Positions 2,698 through 14,513 of a stretch of 14,609 nt of DNA are shown here, piece by piece. Source of the DNA: Clostridium sp. (GTDB lineage: Bacteria > Bacillota_A > Clostridia > Lachnospirales > Lachnospiraceae); assembly GCA_023666975.1 (NCBI GenBank), contig JAMPAW010000079.1, forward strand, positions 1-14,609. Reading direction: 5' to 3'. How positions within the stretch are numbered: position 1 is the first letter of the stretch; each line of letters opens with the position of its first letter. The position numbers and the translations under genes were made by a program. The notes under the pieces are model-generated. The model made no database searches and was not told where the DNA came from. It worked only from the letters and a program-made list of their open reading frames with translations.

Positions 2698-4203
2698 TTA
2701 ATCAATCCTTATATACCTTCTGTTTTTAGTAGTTGCTGTACAGGTTAATCTGCCCATTGCCACCAGTTCATTCAATAACTGCCTTGTCCTTGGTCCTTTT
2801 AATCCTATTCTTTCAGCGATTTCTTCCGTCTTATACAATACTTCCGGCTCCATGCATGCAAGTATCTGTTTCTGCCTTTCAGATAACAATACTTCTTGCG
2901 TTTCTGCTGATTTTTCTGCTGATTCTGCTGATTTTTCTGCTGATTGCTCTCCTTGTTCCGGAATCATTTTAAGATAAAGAGTCACCTGATTAAGGGCGGT
3001 ATCTTCTATCAGCTCCGGTTTTACCCAGCCTTCCTCCTTCCAAGTCGCCAATATGGATGGAAAGCCGGAACCTGCATTGTCCCCAAATCCAACCATTCTA
3101 AGCATGGTCTGCATATGCGGGTTCCTTGATTTTGAATTTCCTCCTCGGTAAATATCTTCTAAAGGAAGCTTCAAAATACCTGGATTCGTAAACTCAAAGC
3201 CATTTGACCTCTTTATTACCTTCAGAACACCTGCATCCATCAAATAGTCGGCATGTATAATAAGGTTTACAAATGCTTCCCTCACTGCTTTGTGTACCGG
3301 AGTCTCATCTATCCGCTGTATTCCCTCAAGTCTAAATGGTTTCTTTAAATCCTCTGTTAATTTTGGCGTGACTTTAGTAAAGAAATTAAAGAGATTATTT
3401 TCCCATGTCCCATCATAGGTAATCCTGTCATTCCAGCGGATATCCATTGTAATTTCGCTTTCATTGCGATAATCCATAAAAATATTGTCAAACTCATTCC
3501 GTATGGCAAGTCCGTCGCCAAACATCATTAAACCTGCAAGTGTCAGCCCCTCCTTGCCCTCTCTTCTGTCTTTTCGATACCCTCCAAGTTTTTCGAGAAA
3601 TGATTTGTCGTCAAGGGAATTCCAGACATGCCCATCATTTCTGATTTCAAAAATCTGCCGGTATTTCCGCAATGTCTCCTTGTCGATATCATCCATTGTA
3701 TAATATTCTAAAATCATTCCATCATTGCCGTCCGGATTCTGGTCACGAATCATTCCTCTAATTTCATGTTCCGTTGCGTGATAATCACCCTCGTTATTTC
3801 GCTTAAATGCCCCTTTGAACGGATTCTCACCAACATAAACCGGACGCATTTTATAATCTGCCCTCGGAACCTTGATCACAATCAAACTAATACCAATCTC
3901 TTCCACAATAAATACATCTTCATCCTTCAGAATATTCCGATTAACCTTGCTGCTGTTAATGGTATTCCAAAAATCCTCTACCTGCTTCTTTGGATTTTGA
4001 ATTCCCTGTATAATAAATCTTTCTTCTGGAAGTGTTTTCTTTTTGTCTTCTTTCACACCAAGAATAATATAGCCACCTTTTGTATTGGCAAAAGCAGAAT
4101 ACGATTCATAGGCAGATCTCGGCACATTGCTCGCTGCTTCTTTGCACTCTATGTCTACTTTTTCGCCTTTATAAATCAACTGTTTTAACTCATACATATT
4201 CAT
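2698..4203 (-). CDS. AlbA_2 / GHKL-ATPase / winged-helix regulator (Schlafen-like)
   Basis: A 501-residue protein of the large 'ATP-binding, RNA/DNA-binding domain' regulator family. Residues about 10-150 form the Schlafen AlbA_2 domain (IECKEA at 18-23, NTKGGYIILGV at 40-50). Residues about 290-415 form a C-terminal HATPase_c_4 domain with N-box REAFVNLIIHADY (308-320; E309, N313) and AGSGFP near 377. Residues about 436-500 form a winged helix. A repetitive linker made of SAEKSAE units (421-434) joins the last two parts. The start at 4203 follows AGGTGATG. It has its own promoter upstream. Members often lie in accessory or defence-rich regions, but the targets are not known and no partner gene is obvious here. 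Confidence 0.9.
   Translation of the reverse strand: MNMYELKQLIYKGEKVDIECKEAASNVPRSAYESYSAFANTKGGYIILGVKEDKKKTLPEERFIIQGIQNPKKQVEDFWNTINSSKVNRNILKDEDVFIVEEIGISLIVIKVPRADYKMRPVYVGENPFKGAFKRNNEGDYHATEHEIRGMIRDQNPDGNDGMILEYYTMDDIDKETLRKYRQIFEIRNDGHVWNSLDDKSFLEKLGGYRKDRREGKEGLTLAGLMMFGDGLAIRNEFDNIFMDYRNESEITMDIRWNDRITYDGTWENNLFNFFTKVTPKLTEDLKKPFRLEGIQRIDETPVHKAVREAFVNLIIHADYLMDAGVLKVIKRSNGFEFTNPGILKLPLEDIYRGGNSKSRNPHMQTMLRMVGFGDNAGSGFPSILATWKEEGWVKPELIEDTALNQVTLYLKMIPEQGEQSAEKSAESAEKSAETQEVLLSERQKQILACMEPEVLYKTEEIAERIGLKGPRTRQLLNELVAMGRLTCTATTKNRRYIRID
2901..2945. repeat. In-frame short tandem repeat in the regulator linker
   Basis: Repeats of the unit TTTTCTGCTGAT and its shorter form TCTGCTGAT occur about four times in a row. 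On the coding (minus) strand they specify alternating SAEK and SAE units at residues 421-434. All units are multiples of three, so gain or loss would change linker length without a frameshift. Such short-unit linkers are common before the winged helix in this family. Confidence 0.75.
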
Positions 4204-4527: not shown

Positions 4528-4965
4528 TCATTCAATTACCTCAGCTTTTTTGCATTCCCCAACTAAACAATCAAGCATAATTTCTAGATTTTCTCCTGCT
4601 CTCTCTAAATATCCATTCGTAAAACAGTAAAATGTATTTTTCTCTGTCATTAATACCATTAAATTCTCCCTGCAAGCAACTCCAATCGGGTACATCATTT
4701 CGTGAATACCATATTCTTCCAATAAATCTTCAAAATAATCCCTATCCAAATTGCTTCCTAATGCTTTGCCTGGAATAAACTCCAAACTTTCCTTTCTTTC
4801 CGCATCATCAAAGACCAACAACCCATATGTACTCAAAAATTTCTCCACATTTGCCGGCATTACAATACCCGCATTCAAGTACATTTCCTTGATATCTGAA
4901 ACATCAATTTTTCTTTTCTCATTCCAGCCTGCTTTTGACAATCTCTCCTGCGTTATTTTTTCCAT
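4528..4965 (-). CDS. SUKH-3 family immunity-like protein
   Basis: A 145-residue protein with the SUKH-3 pattern. SUKH proteins are best known as immunity proteins for contact-dependent or polymorphic toxins and act in the cytoplasm by binding the toxin domain. Visible landmarks are L9-SKAGW at the N-terminus, R18-KIDV, the G33 turn, VEKFLSTYGLLV at 40-51 (family pattern V..FL..fGGL), YPIGVA at 92-97, and an LDCLVGE ending. The frame stays open upstream to 5112, but the ATG at 4963-4965 has AAAGGCGG at the right distance and begins where the family begins. No toxin gene is seen next to it, so it may be an orphan acquired immunity gene. Probably transcribed together with the 32-aa ORF upstream. 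Confidence 0.72.
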   Translation of the reverse strand: MEKITQERLSKAGWNEKRKIDVSDIKEMYLNAGIVMPANVEKFLSTYGLLVFDDAERKESLEFIPGKALGSNLDRDYFEDLLEEYGIHEMMYPIGVACRENLMVLMTEKNTFYCFTNGYLERAGENLEIMLDCLVGECKKAEVIE

Positions 4966-5038
4966 ATTTATCATCCGCCTTTTTTGCAAACCAGCATTAC
5001 CGACAGGAGCACAGATTTCACCCCCGATAAACCGGAAT

Positions 5039-5137
5039 CTATTTCTTTTTCGTAAACTTGTCAACCACGTTATCCACCCAAAACGTGATGAAAAAATCCG
5101 CAATTTCCGCAATCACATTCACAATAAGATCAGACAT
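5039..5137 (-). CDS. Small amphipathic/hydrophobic protein (32 aa)
   Basis: A short ORF with ATG at 5135-5137 and TAG at 5039-5041. It has AAGGGAG spaced 8 nt upstream and a good promoter about 95 bp upstream. The peptide starts MSDLIVNVIAEIADFF, continues with an aromatic segment (FWVDNVVDKF) and ends KKK. This gives a probable membrane-associated helix with acidic spots and a basic tail. It lies 73 bp before the SUKH-3 gene on the same strand. Function unknown; it could be a small membrane protein, a type I toxin-like peptide, or a leader for the SUKH-3 gene. The gene signals are good, the function is open. Confidence 0.6.
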   Translation of the reverse strand: MSDLIVNVIAEIADFFITFWVDNVVDKFTKKK

Positions 5138-6078: not shown

Positions 6079-6420
6079 TTAGGCTGTGGCATATAACGTC
6101 ACCCCATCTCTGTTGACATTTGCATAAAACGGATAGTTTCCAACCCACTTTCGATAATGGGCTTCACTCTTTGCAATCGGCTTTATATCCGTATCATGCT
6201 CCATGTTAAAATCAAATGTCATATCTGAAAGCTGGTGTCTATATTCCTTTATATCCATATCTGATAAATCTAATAGTATCATAACATCCAAATCAGATTC
6301 CGAGTTATAATCGCCTCTCGCATAAGAACCGTATAAAATTACCTTCCGTAAATGAGAACCATATATTTCCTGTACACATGAAACATACTGCTGCATTAAT
6401 CCCTGAATTGTCTGTGGCAT
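6079..6420 (-). CDS. MNT-type minimal nucleotidyltransferase (HEPN-MNT antitoxin), orphaned
   Basis: A 113-residue protein with the DNA polymerase beta-like nucleotidyltransferase core. The motif GSYARGDYNSESDLD is at 31-45 with metal ligands D43 and D45, and a third Asp is likely at D78 (HDTDIKPI). In studied HEPN-MNT pairs the MNT enzyme blocks the HEPN ribonuclease toxin, in some cases by adding AMP to it. Here the motif is intact but the toxin downstream is a stub. The ATG at 6420 was chosen over the in-frame ATG at 6453 because GGAGG precedes it and because the earlier ATG overlaps the -10 box. Confidence 0.85.
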   Translation of the reverse strand: MPQTIQGLMQQYVSCVQEIYGSHLRKVILYGSYARGDYNSESDLDVMILLDLSDMDIKEYRHQLSDMTFDFNMEHDTDIKPIAKSEAHYRKWVGNYPFYANVNRDGVTLYATA

Positions 6421-6451
6421 ATAAACACCTCCATTCTCGTACATATAATTC

Positions 6452-6480
6452 ATTATAGCTTTCTATATCACATCCTGCAA
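6452..6480 (-). promoter_or_regulatory. Promoter of the MNT gene
   Basis: On the minus strand: TTGCAG (6480-6475), 17-nt spacer, perfect TATAAT (6457-6452). The leader to the ATG at 6420 would be about 25 nt and contains the ribosome binding site. Confidence 0.65.
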
Positions 6481-6542: not shown

Positions 6543-6571
6543 TTGACATACAACCAAAATACATATAATAT
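6543..6571 (+). promoter_or_regulatory. Near-consensus promoter of the NYN leader RNA
   Basis: Perfect TTGACA at 6543-6548, a 17-nt spacer, and TAATAT at 6566-6571. The start point is expected at 6576-6580, exactly where the structured leader begins, about 100 nt before the NYN start codon. It is one of the strongest promoters in the window. Confidence 0.8.
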
Positions 6572-6575
6572 GAAA

Positions 6576-6658
6576 GTGTAACAAGGGTTACGCGTTAATA
6601 ATGCACTAGGTTGTACGTCTCTCAACTATATGAGAATGACCGAACCCTAGTGCTTTTT
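6576..6658 (+). ncRNA. Structured leader RNA / small RNA with terminator-like 3' hairpin, upstream of the NYN gene
   Basis: Hairpin 1 pairs 6576-6582 with 6587-6593 (7 pairs, one G-U, tetraloop AAGG) and sits right at the predicted 5' end. Hairpin 2 has an outer stem GCACTAGG (6603-6610) with CCTAGTGC (6646-6653). Its inner arm pairs GTC at 6617-6619 with GAC at 6638-6640, then TCTCA (6620-6624) with TGAGA (6631-6635), with a 2-nt bulge. Five Ts follow at 6654-6658. This could give a free RNA of about 80 nt, or attenuate the NYN gene, whose AGGAGG (6665-6670) follows directly. I cannot match it to a known RNA family. Confidence 0.55.
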
Positions 6659-6677
6659 CAATTAAGGAGGTTTACTT

Positions 6678-7373
6678 ATGAAGACAGCTATTCTCGTTGA
6701 TGGAGGTTTTTATCGCAGACGAGCACAGAAAATATTTGGCGATATCAGTGCGCAAGACAGAGCTGCTGAACTTGCAGATTATTGCAAAAGACATCTCCGA
6801 ACCCACGGGGAAGATAATGATCTGTATAGAATTTTCTATTATGATTGTCCTCCAACCGCAAAAAGAATTTACCATCCATTACTTAAAAAGCAAATAGATT
6901 TTGGGAAAACAGATTTATACAACTGGATGGTTCAATTTCTGAACGAATTAAAAAGAAAGCGGAAATTTGCGATCCGTTTAGGAAAACTCGCAGAGGAGCA
7001 GGCACATTATACTATACGGCCTAATATTATTAAAAAACTATGTACCGGAGCAATCAAATTTGAAGACCTTACAGAAGATGATTTTTGCATTGAAATTGAC
7101 CAAAAAGGCGTTGACATGAAAATCGGATTAGATATTGCTTCATTGTCATATAAAAAACAGGTTGAACAAATCATTTTAATATCCGGAGATAGTGATTTTG
7201 TATCTGCTGCAAAACTCGCCAGAAGAGAAGGTATTGACTTCATATTAGATCCACTTGGTGCTCCTATAAAACCAGATTTATTTGAACATATAGATGGATT
7301 AAGGACTTGTGATAAACAATATACAAACTCTCCATCTTCAACGGCTACCCATTCACAAACCCATAACTCTTAA
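6678..7373 (+). CDS. NYN-domain ribonuclease (LabA/DUF88-like)
   Basis: A 231-residue protein with a PIN-like NYN fold, a metal-dependent RNase family. Acidic residues expected at the active site are present: D8 in AILVDGGF, D146 in KGVDMKIGLDI, and D171/D173 in ISGDSDF. About 130 residues separate the first and second motifs, with a basic segment LKRKRK at 91-96. The body ends at HIDGLR (204-209), and the last 20 residues are low-complexity Ser/Thr/His/Asn. The ATG at 6678 follows AAGGAGG. It is downstream of a strong promoter and the structured leader RNA described above. Such proteins are widespread in gut bacteria, and I know of no defined role for this type. A defence or toxin-like RNase controlled by the leader is possible. 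Confidence 0.85.
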   Translation: MKTAILVDGGFYRRRAQKIFGDISAQDRAAELADYCKRHLRTHGEDNDLYRIFYYDCPPTAKRIYHPLLKKQIDFGKTDLYNWMVQFLNELKRKRKFAIRLGKLAEEQAHYTIRPNIIKKLCTGAIKFEDLTEDDFCIEIDQKGVDMKIGLDIASLSYKKQVEQIILISGDSDFVSAAKLARREGIDFILDPLGAPIKPDLFEHIDGLRTCDKQYTNSPSSTATHSQTHNS

Positions 7374-7595: not shown

Positions 7596-8273
7596 ATGAA
7601 ACATAAAATTTTAATCGTAGACGACGAAACGATGATGACCGAGCTGCTCGCGGATTATTTAGGGGATGAGGGCTACGAGACTTACACTGCCGACAGTGCA
7701 AAATGTGCGCTGGCACTGCTGCCAAAACAGCCTGACCTGATCCTTTTAGACATCAATATGCCGGACATGGACGGTCTGGAACTTTGCAAGGCGATACGCA
7801 GCCATGTGTCCTGTCCGATTTTGTTTCTGACGGCAAGGATTACCGAGCAGGATAAAATAAACGGGCTGCAGTACGGCGGGGATGATTATATCACCAAGCC
7901 GTTCAGCTTAAAGGAGCTTGCGGCAAGGGTGTCCGCCCATTTAAGGCGTGATGAACGCATCCGCAGCAGTGCCTCGTCAGTATTGACATCCGGCGAACTG
8001 CTCGTAAACCTGACCGAACGCCGCATATTTTTCAGGGACACGGAGATTGAAGTCTCCAAGAAAGAATTTGAACTAATTGAGTTTCTGCTGGCAAATGCAG
8101 GGCAGGTGTTTGACCGGGAACGCATTTATGAGCGGATATGGGGCTATGATGCGGAGGGCAGCGCAGACGTTATCAAGGAGCATATCCGTAAAATACGTGC
8201 CAAGCTGCATGCCGTGACAGGCGAAGAATATATCGAAACGGTCTGGGGGGTTGGATACAAATGGAAGCGTTAA
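7596..8273 (+). CDS. OmpR-family response regulator, SpaR/NisR-like
   Basis: A 225-residue DNA-binding response regulator. The receiver domain (1-120) has D9/D10, phospho-acceptor D52 (LLDINMPDMDG), T79 and K101 (ITKPF). The winged helix (about 130-225) contains the recognition region DVIKEHIRKIRAKL and the closing IETVWGVGYKW. The start at 7596 follows AGGAGG. It overlaps the histidine kinase gene by 13 nt, so the two are translationally coupled. The likely targets are its own promoter and that of the lipoprotein-ABC unit, because both carry the same direct repeat. The match to the lantibiotic-type subgroup is inferred from the operator and the neighbouring ABC genes. Confidence 0.93.
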   Translation: MKHKILIVDDETMMTELLADYLGDEGYETYTADSAKCALALLPKQPDLILLDINMPDMDGLELCKAIRSHVSCPILFLTARITEQDKINGLQYGGDDYITKPFSLKELAARVSAHLRRDERIRSSASSVLTSGELLVNLTERRIFFRDTEIEVSKKEFELIEFLLANAGQVFDRERIYERIWGYDAEGSADVIKEHIRKIRAKLHAVTGEEYIETVWGVGYKWKR

Positions 8274-9547
8274 AAAAGAAATGGAACGATTTGCCGCTGA
8301 AACGTTTTCTGATGCTGAGTGTCCTTTTTTCCGTGGGAATCGTCGTGGTTTTGTCGGCATTGATTGCCGGTGGCTGCGCTGCGTTCCGGCACTGGCTTTT
8401 GCCGAACCCAGACGAAGTGTATCTCACAATGGAAGAAACCTGGGCTGATGGGAATGTTTCCGTAAGCACATACCTGCTGGAAATCGGAGCGGATATGGAA
8501 GCCCTGCCTTCCCTGCAGACCTATGACAATGAGGAAGAAATTTCAGAAGATGTGAAGGAGCGGAGGTACTCCATCCAAAAAATAGAAACGGGTGCTGACT
8601 CCCTGACACCAAAGAGAAAGCTTGCCTACCGGCTTTGCGGGATTATCATGTTTGCCGCACCGGCAATGCTGGCGCTTCTGGCGATTTTTTTGTGCAGTAT
8701 CTATTTTTACAGGCGGAAGCTAAGGCAGCCGTTAGCGGTATTGTCGGATGCGGCAAAACAGATCGCCGAACAAAATCTGGATTTCCAGATAGCCTATGAC
8801 TGCCGTGATGAAATGGGGGGCTTATGCCGTTCCTTTGAGGATATGCGGCTGGCACTCTATGAGAACAACCGGGCAATGTGGAATATGCTGGAGGAACAAC
8901 GGCTGATGCAGGCTTCAGTTGCGCATGACCTGCGCAATCCCATTGCCATTATCAAGGGCTATACCGAATATCTGGAGGCAGGGCTTACGCACGGGGAAAT
9001 GAACAGGGAAAAAACGCGCCACATTATCCATAACCTTGGCAAGTCAGCGGATCGGCTGGAGCAGTACACCGAATCGGTCAGGCTGTTAAACCAGCTTGAG
9101 GAAATGCAGCTTTCCCGCAAAACGGCAGCGGCAGACCGGCTGGCGGATGATGCCGCAGAGGATTTGGCGCTCTTAGCGGAGCAAAAAGGCATCGTGCTTC
9201 ATGCAAAGCATACGCTTACCAGTCAGGAAATATCGGTTGACTCCGCCGTGCTGTACCGGATTTTGGAAAATCTGGTAAATAACGCCGTGCGGTATGCCAA
9301 AACCGAGATACAGCTTGCCTTTACCTTGTCCGGTTCGTTCCTCTTTGTTACCGTGACAGACGACGGGGACGGATTTTCTTCCGATATTTTAGAGAGAAAA
9401 AAGAAAGGTATGCTGATCGCGGATAAGGACGGCCACATGGGAATCGGGCTTGCCATCAGCAGGCTTTTGTGCCGAAAGCATGGCGGAAATATGGAGCTGT
9501 CCAACACGGAACATGGCGCCTGCGTAAAAATTTCCCTTTTGGTTTGA
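8261..9547 (+). CDS. Sensor histidine kinase (EnvZ/NisK-type) with short extracytoplasmic loop
   Basis: A 428-residue membrane kinase paired with the regulator just upstream. TM1 is about 17-41, followed by an external loop of about 80 residues, TM2 about 125-150, and a HAMP-like linker 151-205. The HisKA H-box has H222 in VAHDLRNP. The ATPase core has N-box ENLVNNAVRYA (336-346), G1 DDGDGF (367-372) and G2 GHMGIGLA (391-398). The ATG at 8261 lies within the end of the regulator gene. The small external domain suits sensing of an envelope-active molecule or of membrane stress. The stop codon overlaps the first TTGAC box of the next promoter. Confidence 0.93.
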   Translation: MEALKKKWNDLPLKRFLMLSVLFSVGIVVVLSALIAGGCAAFRHWLLPNPDEVYLTMEETWADGNVSVSTYLLEIGADMEALPSLQTYDNEEEISEDVKERRYSIQKIETGADSLTPKRKLAYRLCGIIMFAAPAMLALLAIFLCSIYFYRRKLRQPLAVLSDAAKQIAEQNLDFQIAYDCRDEMGGLCRSFEDMRLALYENNRAMWNMLEEQRLMQASVAHDLRNPIAIIKGYTEYLEAGLTHGEMNREKTRHIIHNLGKSADRLEQYTESVRLLNQLEEMQLSRKTAAADRLADDAAEDLALLAEQKGIVLHAKHTLTSQEISVDSAVLYRILENLVNNAVRYAKTEIQLAFTLSGSFLFVTVTDDGDGFSSDILERKKKGMLIADKDGHMGIGLAISRLLCRKHGGNMELSNTEHGACVKISLLV

Positions 9548-9575
9548 CTGTTTTTTGACTTTTGTCTTTTAAGAT
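9544..9575 (+). promoter_or_regulatory. Spa-box-like operator and promoter of the lipoprotein-ABC unit
   Basis: TTGAC at 9544-9548 and TTGAC at 9555-9559 are separated by six bases, with a TAAGAT box at 9570-9575, 20 nt after the TTGACT hexamer. Box spacing and distance to the -10 are identical to the site before the response regulator, and the bases between are also alike (T-rich). The first box overlaps the TGA of the kinase gene. Confidence 0.55.
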
Positions 9576-9608
9576 CTTCTTGTAAGAAACACAAGGAGGT
9601 CTTTTTTT
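9571..9608 (+). promoter_or_regulatory. Terminator-like hairpin that buries the lipoprotein ribosome binding site
   Basis: AAGATCTTCTTG (9571-9582) can pair with CAAGGAGGTCTT (9592-9603): 12 pairs with two G-U and a 9-nt loop, followed by a T run to 9608. The 3' arm contains the ribosome binding site AAGGAGG. The 5' arm overlaps the -10 box, so RNA started at the local promoter (near 9582) lacks it. Only read-through RNA from the kinase gene could fold this way and terminate or block translation. Confidence 0.5.
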
Positions 9609-10991
9609 ATGAAAAAGTGGTTACTGTTTATGATGACAACAACTCTGTGCTTATCGCTGTGTGCCTGTGGCCAAACAGCCGATACCCAAAATACGGAACA
9701 GCATTCCAAACCGCAAAAAACGGCAGCCAAAACGGATACTGCCCCAAAAAGCGGACTGAAAACATTGCTGAGCAAGAATGGCGAACCATCCTGCAACACG
9801 GAGGACGGCTATTACTACCTGACATCGGAGATAGCCGAGTTAAGTGATGGAAATTACGGGTTCTATTTAATGTACATGGATTTTTCTTCTGGGCGTGAGG
9901 TTTACCTGTGCAGTACGGCAGGGTGCAGGCATGATACCTTAGACTGTCCTGCCGTGCTTTCTTATGACGATTTTCCGATCTTTTCGACCAGGCTGTTTAT
10001 CTTGCAGGACAGCCTGTATATTTTAAGCCGTGAATATGATGATGACGGTTCCAGCTCGCAAAACGTCGTTACCATCGGTGACGACAGCGCGGTGGAAAGC
10101 AGCCCTGCTGCGCTGTACCGCGCAAATCTCGACGGAACCGAACGCCAAAAAATCTATACCTTTGATGCCGGTTTAACCATTGAAGATATGGTGATTGGAA
10201 ATGATGAGGGAATTTATCTCATTACCAAAAGGCTTTCGACGGAAAAAACGGAAGAGGCGACATTCACTACCTCCCAGGAACGCAGGCTGGTATTTCTCAA
10301 TCTTTCTTCGCTCCAAATGCAGGAGGTCTGCCCGATGGACTTCGGGGACAATATTTCATGGAGCATTGTCGGATGCCACGGAAACGAATTTATACTGTAC
10401 GGCATCGACTATGGGCGGGAAATTTCACGGGAAGAAATATGGGATGATGATGTGTACCGGAATCTGTATAATCATTCCGACACGGTATATGCCAGCCTAA
10501 ATGAAAACGGCGGGCAATTGCGGGAAATCTGCCGACAGCCAAACAAGTACGAAAACTCCATGCAGCTAAACGGGGACAGCATGTACCTGTCATCCAATGA
10601 AAACCAGAATATCGAAGCCATCAACTTAGAGACAGGCGAGAAAAAAACTCTTTGCACACTGCCGCAAAATCTGATGATGTATACATTTGAAGATACGCTG
10701 TGCTGTAGGGATTGGAATCTCGGCGGTGAAAACCAGACATGGTACTTTGTAGACACAAAAACAGGTGAGATCACCCAAACCCCGCTCGTCAACCAATGTA
10801 ATGGATGGGCGCTGGAATTTTGCGGAGAAACCGAGGATGAGGCTTTATTGATCTACGATTACGATGCCACGGGCTACGGGGATGGCTCCTATGAAATCCA
10901 TCAGTATAAATATGCGCTGATGAAAAAAGCAGACCTGTTTTCGGGAAAAGAGAATTACCGCAGCATTGAAATGATTGGAGCAGGCAGGTAA
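9609..10991 (+). CDS. Lipoprotein with Cys-x4-Cys-x-His-x4-Cys motif
   Basis: A 460-residue exported lipoprotein. Residues 1-19 are a signal peptide and LCAC (17-20) is the lipobox, with C20 as the likely lipidated residue. A polar linker runs to about 48. The mature part is rich in aromatic beta-strand patterns suggesting a propeller-like fold. Near its start is VYLCSTAGCRHDTLDCPA, with C101, C106, H108 and C113 in metal-site-like spacing. I recall similar lipoproteins beside ABC exporters and two-component genes in gut Firmicutes, but no named function. It lies between the kinase and ABC genes, 14 bp before the ATPase. A role as a cell-surface binding or sensing partner of the transporter is inferred. 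Confidence 0.8.
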   Translation: MKKWLLFMMTTTLCLSLCACGQTADTQNTEQHSKPQKTAAKTDTAPKSGLKTLLSKNGEPSCNTEDGYYYLTSEIAELSDGNYGFYLMYMDFSSGREVYLCSTAGCRHDTLDCPAVLSYDDFPIFSTRLFILQDSLYILSREYDDDGSSSQNVVTIGDDSAVESSPAALYRANLDGTERQKIYTFDAGLTIEDMVIGNDEGIYLITKRLSTEKTEEATFTTSQERRLVFLNLSSLQMQEVCPMDFGDNISWSIVGCHGNEFILYGIDYGREISREEIWDDDVYRNLYNHSDTVYASLNENGGQLREICRQPNKYENSMQLNGDSMYLSSNENQNIEAINLETGEKKTLCTLPQNLMMYTFEDTLCCRDWNLGGENQTWYFVDTKTGEITQTPLVNQCNGWALEFCGETEDEALLIYDYDATGYGDGSYEIHQYKYALMKKADLFSGKENYRSIEMIGAGR

Positions 10992-11005
10992 GGAGGCTTT
11001 TACAT

Positions 11006-11749
11006 ATGCTGGAATTAGACCATATTACAAAGAAATACAGGGATAAAACGGCGCTGGACGATGTTTCCATCACGCTTGGCTGCGGCATTTACGGGCTGCT
11101 TGGGCCAAACGGCGCCGGAAAATCCACCTTGATGAACATTATCACGGGAAACATCAAACCTACGGAGGGAGCTGTATTGTGGGATGGCACGGACATTTAC
11201 AAATTGGGGGCGCAGTTCCGCAGCCTGATTGGCTATGCACCCCAGCAGCAGGGGCTTTACAACAGCTTTTCCGGCAGGCGTTTTCTGGCATATATGGCGG
11301 CGCTGAAGGGAATTTCCAAAAGGGACGTGGCGGATGAACTTAATCGTGTGCTGTCCTATGTAAATATGCAGGAGGCGGCAGACAGGGCGATTGGCGGATA
11401 TTCGGGAGGAATGAAACAGCGAATCTTAATCGCACAGGCAATTCTTGGAAATCCAAAGCTGATTGTACTGGACGAGCCTACGGCAGGGCTTGACCCAAAG
11501 GAGCGGGTGCGTGTACGGGAACAGATTCAGGCGCTGGCAGGGGATAAAATCATTCTTGTCTCCACCCATGTCGTATCGGATATTGCGCCTATTGCGAAGG
11601 AAATACTGCTCATCCGCAGCGGCAGCATTGTGGACAGGGGTACCGTGGAGGCACTCTGCCACAAATACGGGGAAAGCAAAAACCTTGAGGAAGTATATAT
11701 GCACGTATTCGGAGAGGAGGGATGTTATGCTTCGGTTGATTCCATTTGA
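11006..11749 (+). CDS. ABC transporter ATP-binding subunit
   Basis: A 247-residue cytoplasmic ATPase that drives the ABC permease encoded next. Walker A GPNGAGKST is at 33-41, the Q-loop glutamine is Q80, the signature YSGGMKQR is at 132-139, Walker B LIVLDEP is at 152-158, and the H-loop is in STHVVSD. It is of the type that works with ABC-2 exporter permeases, including antibiotic-peptide resistance exporters. The start follows AAGGAGG, 14 bp after the lipoprotein gene. The 3' end overlaps the permease start by 23 nt, giving tight coupling. Confidence 0.95.
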   Translation: MLELDHITKKYRDKTALDDVSITLGCGIYGLLGPNGAGKSTLMNIITGNIKPTEGAVLWDGTDIYKLGAQFRSLIGYAPQQQGLYNSFSGRRFLAYMAALKGISKRDVADELNRVLSYVNMQEAADRAIGGYSGGMKQRILIAQAILGNPKLIVLDEPTAGLDPKERVRVREQIQALAGDKIILVSTHVVSDIAPIAKEILLIRSGSIVDRGTVEALCHKYGESKNLEEVYMHVFGEEGCYASVDSI

Positions 11750-14006
11750 GCTAGGCAGGCAGTTAAAAAAGAAAAGCTTTGTGTTATCCATCTGCTTTTT
11801 ACTGCTTCTTCATCTGTTTCTGCTGTGGTATACATCCCTGCCAGATGAAGAACAGCCACCCCTTTCCGCATATAAAGCAATCGGGAAGGAGCTGCAGGAT
11901 AAGAGTGAGGCGGAAAAGGGAAACTACATCCAGGCGCTTAAGGAGAAAATGGATGGTGTCTTATTTGTGCGCGACATTCTGGCAATGCAGTCCTTTCACA
12001 ATGAAATGGGAGATGCCCTGGCAAGCCAGGAACTGCAAAGCCATCCGGATGTATTTGAACGGTATTATGAACCGTATCAGTCGGGAGACTACCTTGCCTT
12101 TACCGGTTCCCTGGAACAGGAATGCAGCCTGATTGACGAAATTTATGCGGAGTGGCAGACGGTTTCCGGCTATGGGGAGTATCTCGCATCCATTCAGGAG
12201 CAGAAAGAAGCCTTAAGCGGAATATCCATTTGGAGCGGAACCGGCAAAGATTCCTTCAGCTCGAGGAATCTGCAAAAAAGTGCAGCGGATTATGCCGGGC
12301 TTACCGGCCAGACGATACGGTTTGCCCCGTCTAAAGGGCTTGTCTCCGCCATGGAAGCGGTGTGGGCTGACTGGCTGCTTTTTCTTGGCATGATGCTTTT
12401 TGTTGCCAGCATGATTACAGAGGAAAAAGAGAAAAAGCTGTTTTTCATCACCAGAAGCACGATGCATGGCCAAATGGACAACATGGCATCAAGGCTGGCG
12501 GCACTGCTTATTTACTGTGTTTTGTTGACAGGCATTTTTTATTCTGTCAGCATCATCTTTTTTGGTCAGAGTACCGGCTGGTTTGATTTTACGGCAGGCA
12601 TACAATCGGCTGCCGCCTATGCCGCAGGCAGCCTTCCGATCAGCATTTTGGGCTATATCCTGCTTTCCGTACTGACAAAGGCATTGGTGCTGTTTGGCAT
12701 CGGCGCTGTGCTTACCATTTTCTGTATCGTGTCAGAAATTGCAGTCCTGCCGTTTTTGACAGGGGCAGTCTGTATCGGCATAAGCGCATTACTCTACTAT
12801 CTGATTCCTGCAGGCTCGCCGCTGTCCGTTTTCAAATATATGAACCTGATCGGACTGATGAAAACGGAAAACCTGTACGGCAATTACCTGAATTTTAATC
12901 TGTTCCAATATCCCGTGGCAAGGCTTGGGCTGTCGCTTGAGCTTATCCTGATCGTCTGCGTAATCGGAACGGCAGGCGGCCTGTGGAGCTTTTGCCACAT
13001 GAAAAGCTTTGAGATAAAGAAACTGAAATTGCCCGCTATCCTCCCATTCAAGCCGCACACCAGCATTTGGCGGCATGAGGCGTATAAAATACTGGTCACC
13101 AATCAGGCATTCGTCATCCTCTTGCTGTTTTCCATGCTGCTTGTATATAAGAACACCAGCCGTACCTATAGCCCTTCGGTCAGGGAACAGTATTACCAGA
13201 CACTGATGGCTGAACTGGAGGGAGAGCTGACCGGCGAAAAGGAAACGCTTATTTTAGCGGAACAGGCGAGGTTTGAGGAGGCCATGCAGAAAATAGAAGA
13301 AATTGATGGGATGATTGCCGCCGGTGCCATCAGCGATGCCGCAGGAGATTCCTTAAAAGCGCAGGCAAATATGACACTTGCCTTTTACCCTGCATTCCAG
13401 CGGGCCGAGGAACAGTATGCGCACATAAAATCAGAGGGCGGCAGCTTTGTTTATGATACCGGATATCTTTACCTGTTTGGGGCTATGGAGGATGCCTTTT
13501 CCGTTGACCTGCTGATTTTAACCATCGGCATGATCCTTGCCGTAAGCGGCGTGCCGGCAATGGAATATCAGAGCGGCTCCCAGCTTTTGATCCGCGCAGC
13601 GAAAGCCGGAATACGGAAGATAATGGTCTGTAAAACCCTGATTTGCAGTATGGCAGCGGCAGTTCCTGCCATTGCCTGCAGTGTGAGCCGGATATGCCAT
13701 ATTGCATCCGTTTACCCGATGCACGGGGCAGGTGCGGATATCAGAAGCATTTCCTATTTTGCCAGGCTTCCCTTTCCGATGACGACCAGGTGCTTTGCCG
13801 TGCTGTTTGTCCTTTCCCAGCTTGTGGCCGCCATGCTGATTACACTGGCAGTCATCGGAATATCCATATGGAGAAAAAATCAGGTGCAGACCGTGTTTTT
13901 TGCCCTGCTGCTTCTGGCTGTCCCTCTGGTCTTAAAGCTGCTTGGCTTTGAGATGGCAAAATGGTTTTCGCTGTATCCGCTGTATGGCTGGACGGGGATG
14001 CTGTAA
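11727..14006 (+). CDS. Large ABC-2-type permease with two homologous-looking halves
   Basis: A 759-residue membrane subunit of the transporter. Each half begins with a lone membrane helix (18-36 and 461-475), followed by a large external domain (about 37-212 and 476-590), a helix, and a cytoplasmic segment with a Glu and a Lys/Arg-rich turn. Further helices follow: about 255-280, 305-333, 338-360 and 403-422 in the first half; about 636-652, 692-714 and 721-741 in the second. So one chain probably supplies both transmembrane halves. The ATG at 11727 has GAGGAGG upstream; the open frame extends 88 codons further, but that part is the ATPase gene in another frame. Export or removal of a membrane-active compound is inferred from context. 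Confidence 0.85.
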   Translation: MLRLIPFELGRQLKKKSFVLSICFLLLLHLFLLWYTSLPDEEQPPLSAYKAIGKELQDKSEAEKGNYIQALKEKMDGVLFVRDILAMQSFHNEMGDALASQELQSHPDVFERYYEPYQSGDYLAFTGSLEQECSLIDEIYAEWQTVSGYGEYLASIQEQKEALSGISIWSGTGKDSFSSRNLQKSAADYAGLTGQTIRFAPSKGLVSAMEAVWADWLLFLGMMLFVASMITEEKEKKLFFITRSTMHGQMDNMASRLAALLIYCVLLTGIFYSVSIIFFGQSTGWFDFTAGIQSAAAYAAGSLPISILGYILLSVLTKALVLFGIGAVLTIFCIVSEIAVLPFLTGAVCIGISALLYYLIPAGSPLSVFKYMNLIGLMKTENLYGNYLNFNLFQYPVARLGLSLELILIVCVIGTAGGLWSFCHMKSFEIKKLKLPAILPFKPHTSIWRHEAYKILVTNQAFVILLLFSMLLVYKNTSRTYSPSVREQYYQTLMAELEGELTGEKETLILAEQARFEEAMQKIEEIDGMIAAGAISDAAGDSLKAQANMTLAFYPAFQRAEEQYAHIKSEGGSFVYDTGYLYLFGAMEDAFSVDLLILTIGMILAVSGVPAMEYQSGSQLLIRAAKAGIRKIMVCKTLICSMAAAVPAIACSVSRICHIASVYPMHGAGADIRSISYFARLPFPMTTRCFAVLFVLSQLVAAMLITLAVIGISIWRKNQVQTVFFALLLLAVPLVLKLLGFEMAKWFSLYPLYGWTGML

Positions 14007-14031: not shown

Positions 14032-14409
14032 CTATCTCCTTGCCCCCTCCTCCGTAAAGATTCTCTTTAAGGCTCTCTCTGTCGGGAAAATAGATGCGAT
14101 TAAAATCACACACTGCACGGTGCATAGGATTGCCGCAACAACTCCAATCCTATTCTCCGAACTGTGGTAAAATGGAAGGTGAACCACAAATGACGGTATC
14201 AACATCACCCAGCCGATTTTCCACCATAAGCGGCCGCAATGCTCCTGCGCAAACTTCCATGTATCTATATTTTTCATGGAACGCGCCGTCCGGTAACCAA
14301 CTAGCCCATTGATTTTTTCAGGGGCATGTTTCCACATCATACGACCGGCAGCAACCATAAGTATTGGAATAAGCAAATCACAAACAAGCATAAACCACCA
14401 AAACCACAT
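14032..14409 (-). CDS. SdpI-family membrane protein
   Basis: A 125-residue membrane protein with the SdpI pattern: INGLVGYRTARSMKN (33-47), W51-KFA, a central membrane segment (64-80) and a late segment ending in FPTERAL (108-114). In Bacillus subtilis SdpI gives immunity to the SdpC toxin and also signals its presence. Homologues are widespread and most have not been tested. The ATG at 14409 follows AGGAGG; an in-frame ATG at 14430 lacks a site. It converges on the permease gene with only 25 bp between stop codons and no clear terminator. Its closeness to an envelope-defence locus fits an immunity role. Confidence 0.85.
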   Translation of the reverse strand: MWFWWFMLVCDLLIPILMVAAGRMMWKHAPEKINGLVGYRTARSMKNIDTWKFAQEHCGRLWWKIGWVMLIPSFVVHLPFYHSSENRIGVVAAILCTVQCVILIASIFPTERALKRIFTEEGARR

Positions 14410-14513
14410 ATTTTCTTTTCCTCCTGTCAAGTACCGTCACCCCTTGAAAACTCTAAATTTATGAAAGTCAACTTTTTTTATTCATCACATCATTTTATAT
14501 CGTTTCCCTTGTG

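Follow-up and report, generated by a model that had tools for sequence, protein, structure and literature searches.

A conserved hairpin RNA paired with NYN-domain genes on prophages and plasmids, a candidate RNA-antitoxin/ribonuclease module

Introduction

What does a compact, structured RNA do between a consensus promoter and a predicted ribonuclease gene? The question is raised by a 14,609-nt contig of Clostridium sp. (i.e. JAMPAW010000079.1; the whole stretch analysed is termed the window). The initial annotation of this locus likened it to RNA-protein toxin-antitoxin (TA) or abortive-infection pairs and offered simple attenuation as the other explanation. Comparison with related loci points to a module in which an RNA behind a consensus promoter precedes an NYN gene; the RNA is likely, at roughly an even bet, to bind the enzyme and keep it inactive.

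Results

A structured leader separates a consensus promoter from an NYN gene

Re-reading of the sequence recovered each annotated element in its place. The promoter (6543-6571, plus strand, as are all elements of the module) consists of TTGACA (6543-6548), a 17-nt spacer and TAATAT (6566-6571). A first hairpin, GTGTAAC-AAGG-GTTACGC (6576-6593), starts at about the predicted +1 and is followed by a single-stranded linker (6594-6602) carrying a (C/U)UAA motif. The second hairpin (i.e. hairpin 2; 6603-6653) ends in a TTTTT run (6654-6658) that would render it terminator-like. An AGGAGG ribosome-binding site (6665-6670) then leads into a gene for a 231-aa NYN-domain protein (6678-7373; ATG at 6678, stop codon at 7371-7373). 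Promoter, 5'-end hairpin and T run together have the layout expected of a discrete RNA. The predicted fold of the leader is only a modest improvement on those of its shuffles (z = -1.85, with 11 of 200 shuffles equally good), so the window by itself is unable to exclude chance.

The protein matches Pfam NYN (E = 6.2e-9, 36.9 bits against a cut-off of 24.2) and no other Pfam family, Abi_2/AbiF included, and is a predicted ribonuclease. Residues D8, D146, D152, D171 and D173 are invariant across 46 aligned sequences, indicating that the acidic motifs are intact, as annotated. The nearest solved folds are NYN domains, a result obtained with VIA-align only; Foldseek against the PDB returned nothing below E = 0.001, its top rows being unrelated. 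No ToxN row is listed among the nearest solved folds, which is not an exclusion of ToxN likeness.

The annotation had described the surroundings as rich in immunity and TA genes, which holds on one side of the module. Here lie genes for a Schlafen/AlbA_2 protein (2698-4203), a SUKH-3 immunity protein (4528-5112, minus strand) and a lone MNT-type nucleotidyltransferase (6079-6453, minus strand; PADLOC PDC-S09, E = 1.9e-25), whereas the other side is an ordinary cluster (7596-14006, plus strand) of a two-component system, an unmatched 460-aa protein, an ABC ATPase and a large protein without a Pfam match, together with an SdpI-family gene (14032-14430, minus strand). No toxin gene was recognised beside the SUKH-3 gene. 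The MntA_antitoxin match of the nucleotidyltransferase falls below the cut-off of that model, no ORF of at least 60 aa lies directly downstream as a HEPN partner, and one minus-strand frame near this gene was, when read, interrupted by stops. No prophage is visible around the window copy.

Hairpin 2 is conserved and covaries in every helix

Alignment of the regions upstream of NYN homologues and a covariance model, both proposed in the annotation, showed that the hairpin is conserved and has undergone compensatory change; the refuting outcome named there, with no hairpins upstream of homologues and no compensatory changes, was not observed. Hairpin 2 comprises, in order, helix P1 (6603-6610/6646-6653), an internal loop (6611-6645) in which UGUA (6612-6615) stands opposite GAA (6642-6644), a short P2 (6617-6619/6638-6640), a bulge and P3 (6620-6623/6632-6635). 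In a first alignment of 46 sequences, RNAalifold, without being supplied with a structure, returned P1, P2 and P3 with compensatory changes in 14 of 14 pairs. A hand-named structure of 15 pairs was paired in 89% of cells, as compared to 69% in shuffles and 22-59% when slid along the alignment; its third P2 pair, present in the window, is absent from 31 of the 46 sequences. The P1 ends were picked by stem score in this alignment, which favours P1, and P2 and P3 played no part in the choice.

In a second alignment, made with MAFFT from 57 sequences, RNAalifold again found covariation at 14 of 14 pairs; 94% of cells were paired (shuffles: 74%), and doubly changed cells numbered 184 as compared to 50. 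These are 57 of 70 strong genome-locus matches whose positions were located by the covariance model; four repeats of training sequences and nine others (i.e. near-duplicates or weaker matches) were left out, and none of the 57 rows duplicates a training sequence or another row.

Conservation extends to unpaired letters, some of which match the helices in this respect. The internal-loop GUA occurs in 41 of 46 sequences of the first alignment and in 63 of 74 rows of a third (79 rows, five of which were removed before counting as matches not adjoining an NYN gene). The opposite strand mostly reads GAA or GAG, and GUA is combined with one of these in 29 of the 46. The AU of the apical loop is conserved though unpaired. 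The conserved unpaired letters of the GUA/GAA loop and the apical AU suggest a protein-binding surface. A search for a pseudoknot by mutual information, a method to which a non-covarying pseudoknot is invisible, recovered only the nested helices and loop neighbours.

As the annotation had supposed, no named RNA family describes this element. With Rfam 15, the window produced no match up to E = 5 apart from two chance matches, and 15 relatives produced only tRNA at gathering scores, with nothing at the element.

The RNA and the NYN gene are strictly paired

Relatives of the NYN protein are abundant, with 7999 of 8000 scored candidates at E ≤ 0.001, and are encoded in 76 viral-contig loci, 165 plasmid records and 15 phage records as well as in genome loci, of which the best 80 of at least 337 confirmed were analysed. 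The same kind of hairpin lies upstream of most relatives that were read; for four loci (i.e. L061, L069, L075 and L076) only the upstream text was read, and L074 was left out. The covariance model, trained on 46 sequences, matched the window at 6592-6659 with 66.9 bits, a score that is not independent as the window is one of the training rows. Applied to the 80 genome loci, four of which (L126, L129, L133 and L161) repeat training sequences (L029, L030, L035 and L049), the model placed the RNA directly upstream of the NYN gene in 74, with 70 at E < 0.001 and four weaker (E = 0.012-0.062). No match at E < 0.001 was found elsewhere in the 735 kb of these loci, the five others being at E = 0.0012 or worse. 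Each of the remaining six loci (i.e. L131, L139, L154, L157, L160 and L162) has a related hairpin by eye.

Pairing was also assessed in 200 genomes chosen around Blautia schinkii, from which their family, Lachnospiraceae, is taken. Separate scans with the NYN profile and the RNA model picked the same nine genomes (the sample centre, G001, among them), and all ten NYN copies adjoin the RNA. No genuine RNA copy away from an NYN gene was found in these 200 genomes; one apparent orphan (G085:C4, 31.5 bits) was ruled out as a terminator-like hairpin ending a 481-aa ORF. Both here and in the 80 genome loci there is one model match per NYN gene and none in tandem.

Two further samples, one of 246 genomes from the phylum of Corynebacterium G003 and one of 194 from that of Verrucomicrobiales bacterium G012, together contained 12 NYN genes. 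Nine have the RNA, two have none visible and one has a dissimilar hairpin. Among the nine, one belongs to a split NYN gene (G630) and three (G003, G012 and G004) are cases in which the pair had already been seen. No RNA is visible upstream of NYN in loci L184 and L185, and only a long dissimilar hairpin in L186.

Breadth, variants and broken genes

Good model scores were obtained in several phyla, which we take from the organism names: in Bacillota, Treponema (52.5 bits), Alloscardovia (58-61), Akkermansia (51-52), Fibrobacter (35.5), a Phycisphaerae bacterium (43.6) and a Moraxella phage (36.6). A Xanthomonas plasmid scored 40.7 bits and is a training row. Distant relatives from Thermus (L077), Campylobacter (L078), a lambdoid coliphage (L080), and Aeromonas and Spartinivicinus (L192 and L193) reached only 15-20 bits (E = 0.008-0.25), at the right position. 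The model gave no match at the right place in a Proteus phage (L195) or in two further plasmids of Campylobacter (L190 and L191); a hairpin is visible in L190 and L195 and none in L191. In the model run that also scored the window, L060, L067, L068, L071, L073, L078 and L080 were missed and L010, L063 and L077 matched weakly; these loci have hairpins by folding.

Two variant forms were observed. In an actinomycete form (L131, L137, L139, L154, L159 and L160) the loop is GUUGA facing (C)GAUGA and not AGUA/GAA, and three of the six loci have no T run. The form of the lambdoid and Proteus phages (L080, 3914-3983; L195, upstream of 595) is a hairpin GCCCAG..CCGUU..AACGG..CUGGGC directly behind a LexA-type repressor gene. 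The corresponding stretch of the lambdoid phage, ev099, was matched in 274 of 5426 E. coli genomes, and over at least 80% of its length in 73.

Five broken NYN genes have kept the hairpin: L138 (stop codon; 23.3 bits), L156 (frameshift; 57.6 bits), G041 (L172; internal deletion, 63.6 bits), G630 (L187/L188; split, 20.8 bits) and L071 (frameshift; hairpin by folding only, no model score).

Many copies reside on mobile elements

Many copies lie in prophages, ahead of integrases or on conjugative plasmids. In ten loci selected for having a large ORF after NYN, this ORF encodes an integrase in all ten. Nine upstream neighbours were tested, of which four encode repressor-type regulators, two phage metalloproteases and three proteins without a named function. 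A LexA-type repressor gene precedes NYN both in Proteus phage Brookers and in the lambdoid phage ev099. Genes located close to the repressor and the integrase are commonly active in lysogens and frequently have a role in defence. The phage family of the NYN relatives is PHROG 5783, annotated as 'unknown function'.

On Campylobacter plasmids NYN follows an SNF2-related gene, and the same spot in pTet of strain 81-176 is occupied by a GNAT gene. Across L078, L189 and L190, this accessory spot between the SNF2-related gene and a MobP1 relaxase gene holds NYN, GNAT or both. On a Thermus plasmid (L077, 1136-8706), NYN is flanked by a helicase-related gene on one side and an overlapping N-6 DNA methylase gene on the other, an arrangement that resembles defence loci. 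Small RNA candidates with Northern blots are described for C. jejuni 81-176 pVir and pTet (PMC3656092). A pTet sRNA was rejected as a published transcript of the module, as an NYN gene is missing from pTet, where tblastn with two NYN proteins as queries found nothing at E ≤ 1.

Discussion

Restraint of the enzyme and its alternatives

Restraint by the RNA is preferred to purely cis-acting control and to an activating cofactor, a preference that carries about half of our confidence. Most transcripts would stop at hairpin 2 and yield a stable RNA of ~80 nt, and rare read-through would supply a little NYN enzyme. The RNA, made in excess, would bind and silence the enzyme, with the internal loop and P3 as the parts that the enzyme recognises. 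Once the RNA is lost or degraded, whether in the course of an infection or because the element itself has gone, the enzyme would be freed and would then cut cellular or phage RNA.

Counted in favour of restraint are the covariation seen in all helices in both alignments, the near-strict one-to-one pairing without orphan RNAs, the discrete-RNA layout of promoter, 5' hairpin and T run, the conserved unpaired letters, the placement on prophages and conjugative plasmids, and the published analogue AbiF/RCd22. The five broken NYN genes that retain a hairpin are also counted, although recent breaks would leave such remnants under other models as well. Counted against it are the absence of two usual traits of type III antitoxins, for neither tandem repeats nor a pseudoknot signal was seen, the relatives with a dissimilar hairpin or without a recognisable RNA, the weak scores of distant relatives, and the fact that a terminator role alone would preserve P1 and the T run.

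The alternative that survives best, though unlikely, is a leader acting only in cis, in which NYN would bind or cut the hairpin of its own leader and so tune termination or translation, with no separate antitoxin. It accords with an RNA that is always directly upstream of NYN on the same strand, has no copy elsewhere and ends in a T run in most relatives. A promoter score of at least 10 was found in 71% of 107 distinct leaders as compared to 9% of shuffles, and 79 leaders with a usable promoter folded with a mean z of -2.1 (78% below -1), the first paired base sitting near the predicted +1 and the 5' hairpin varying in sequence among relatives. The linker motif YTAA was present in 60 of 120 cases (23 expected; maximum of 36 in 200 shuffles). 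Against cis control, no antiterminator emerged from 78 leaders: pairing of the 5' leader with the 3' strand of P1 (mean z = 0.00, s.e.m. 0.12) or with the other strand (mean z = 0.08) was no better than in shuffles. Furthermore, the hairpin is conserved without a T run in Campylobacter L078, where a separate hairpin terminator follows the element, and in Corynebacterium L131, L139 and L154; this retention is counted for restraint. As antiterminator complementarity is lacking and T-run-free relatives exist, the element is more than a terminator and unlike a classical attenuator, and the simple attenuation considered in the annotation is weakened.

A role as cofactor is improbable. The RNA and NYN would here form a ribonucleoprotein in which the RNA, as guide or scaffold, activates the enzyme or directs it at phage RNA. 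Strict pairing, conserved unpaired letters and the prophage and plasmid setting would suit such a complex; the NYN genes without a recognisable RNA (i.e. L184 and L185) speak against it, as does the lack of a variable segment between the conserved helices, on which ground the alignments ruled out a guide RNA.

An equally doubtful proposal starts from the internal loop. AGUA facing GAA, next to C and before CC, we take to be the letters of the 23S sarcin-ricin loop. The RNA would then carry a copy of this motif as a decoy, and the NYN enzyme would be a ribotoxin cutting 23S rRNA, kept by prophages and plasmids to shut down translation on attack by another phage; such modules would form a new and very widespread class with an RNA antitoxin. 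The likeness in letters has bounds: the sarcin-ricin (bulged-G, loop E) motif is capped by a GAGA tetraloop, whereas the module loop is capped by P2 and P3, and Corynebacterium variants have GUUGA facing CGAUGA.

An ordinary terminator or insulator, whose likeness among relatives would reflect descent and stem constraints, has a hairpin plus T run in its favour, as well as a sole spurious match in 200 genomes that proved an ordinary terminator-like hairpin, and is highly improbable given the conserved GUA/GAA loop, the many compensatory changes in P3, the promoter just before the hairpin and the T runs missing from some relatives.

Should the RNA restrain the enzyme, the known range of RNA antitoxins would grow to include partners from the PIN/NYN superfamily and an RNA that is single and without repeats, and PHROG 5783 would gain a function; a toxic enzyme held by its RNA would represent a novel type of toxin or phage-defence module under RNA control. 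The conserved internal loop may give a direct idea of what the NYN enzyme recognises. The RNA has no match in Rfam 15, although the protein family beside which it occurs numbers thousands of relatives, on prophages, conjugative plasmids and genomes of several phyla.

Comparison with known systems

A literature search, whose coverage stopped short of supplementary lists, bioRxiv and many subscription papers, found no description of an NYN-linked RNA among the papers listed. A 2017 study reportedly presented 224 candidate RNAs, and this RNA may sit unlabelled in some published supplementary list. Among known NYN ribonucleases, we know of no linked leader RNA for MARF1 or VPA0982, and neither these nor any other PDB entry is a sequence relative of the window protein at E ≤ 0.001, the single, unrelated row being at 0.61. 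Term look-up in the accessible parts of PMC11109978, PMC6429828 and PMC8040213 yielded no NYN-linked RNA.

Type III TA systems (i.e. ToxIN, CptIN and TenpIN) are phage-related and consist of a promoter, an RNA, a Rho-independent terminator and an endoribonuclease gene, their antitoxins being tandem repeats that fold as pseudoknots (PMC5086642). By sequence, the module has the same order of promoter, RNA, terminator and gene. It differs from these systems, as described there, in that its RNA is a single hairpin with no repeat or pseudoknot signal in place of a repeat array, and in its NYN-fold enzyme (Pfam NYN only). Since tandem repeats were looked for and not found, type III membership is not claimed.

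The RNA-protein TA or abortive-infection pair suggested by the annotation is supported in part, being consistent with layout, mobile setting, strict pairing and the existence of an analogue. That analogue, the closest proven case, is AbiF/RCd22 of Clostridioides difficile, in which a SigA promoter, a structured RNA of ~100 nt, a terminator and the gene of a phage-encoded toxic protein follow one another, and the RCd22 antitoxin acts both in cis and in trans, neutralising the toxin by direct contact (PMC12373285). The Rfam abiF motif (RF03085, Rfam 15) was not found in the window RNA or in 15 relatives. AbiF is an Abi_2 protein structurally linked to Cas13 ancestors whereas the enzyme of the module is an NYN protein, and RCd22 has two abiF motifs whereas the RNA of the module is one unit with other letters and another fold; the two are nearly identical in layout and alike in having a conserved RNA motif tied to the gene. 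On this analogy, the module is best read as a type III-like pair of RNA antitoxin and RNase, closest in layout to AbiF/RCd22.
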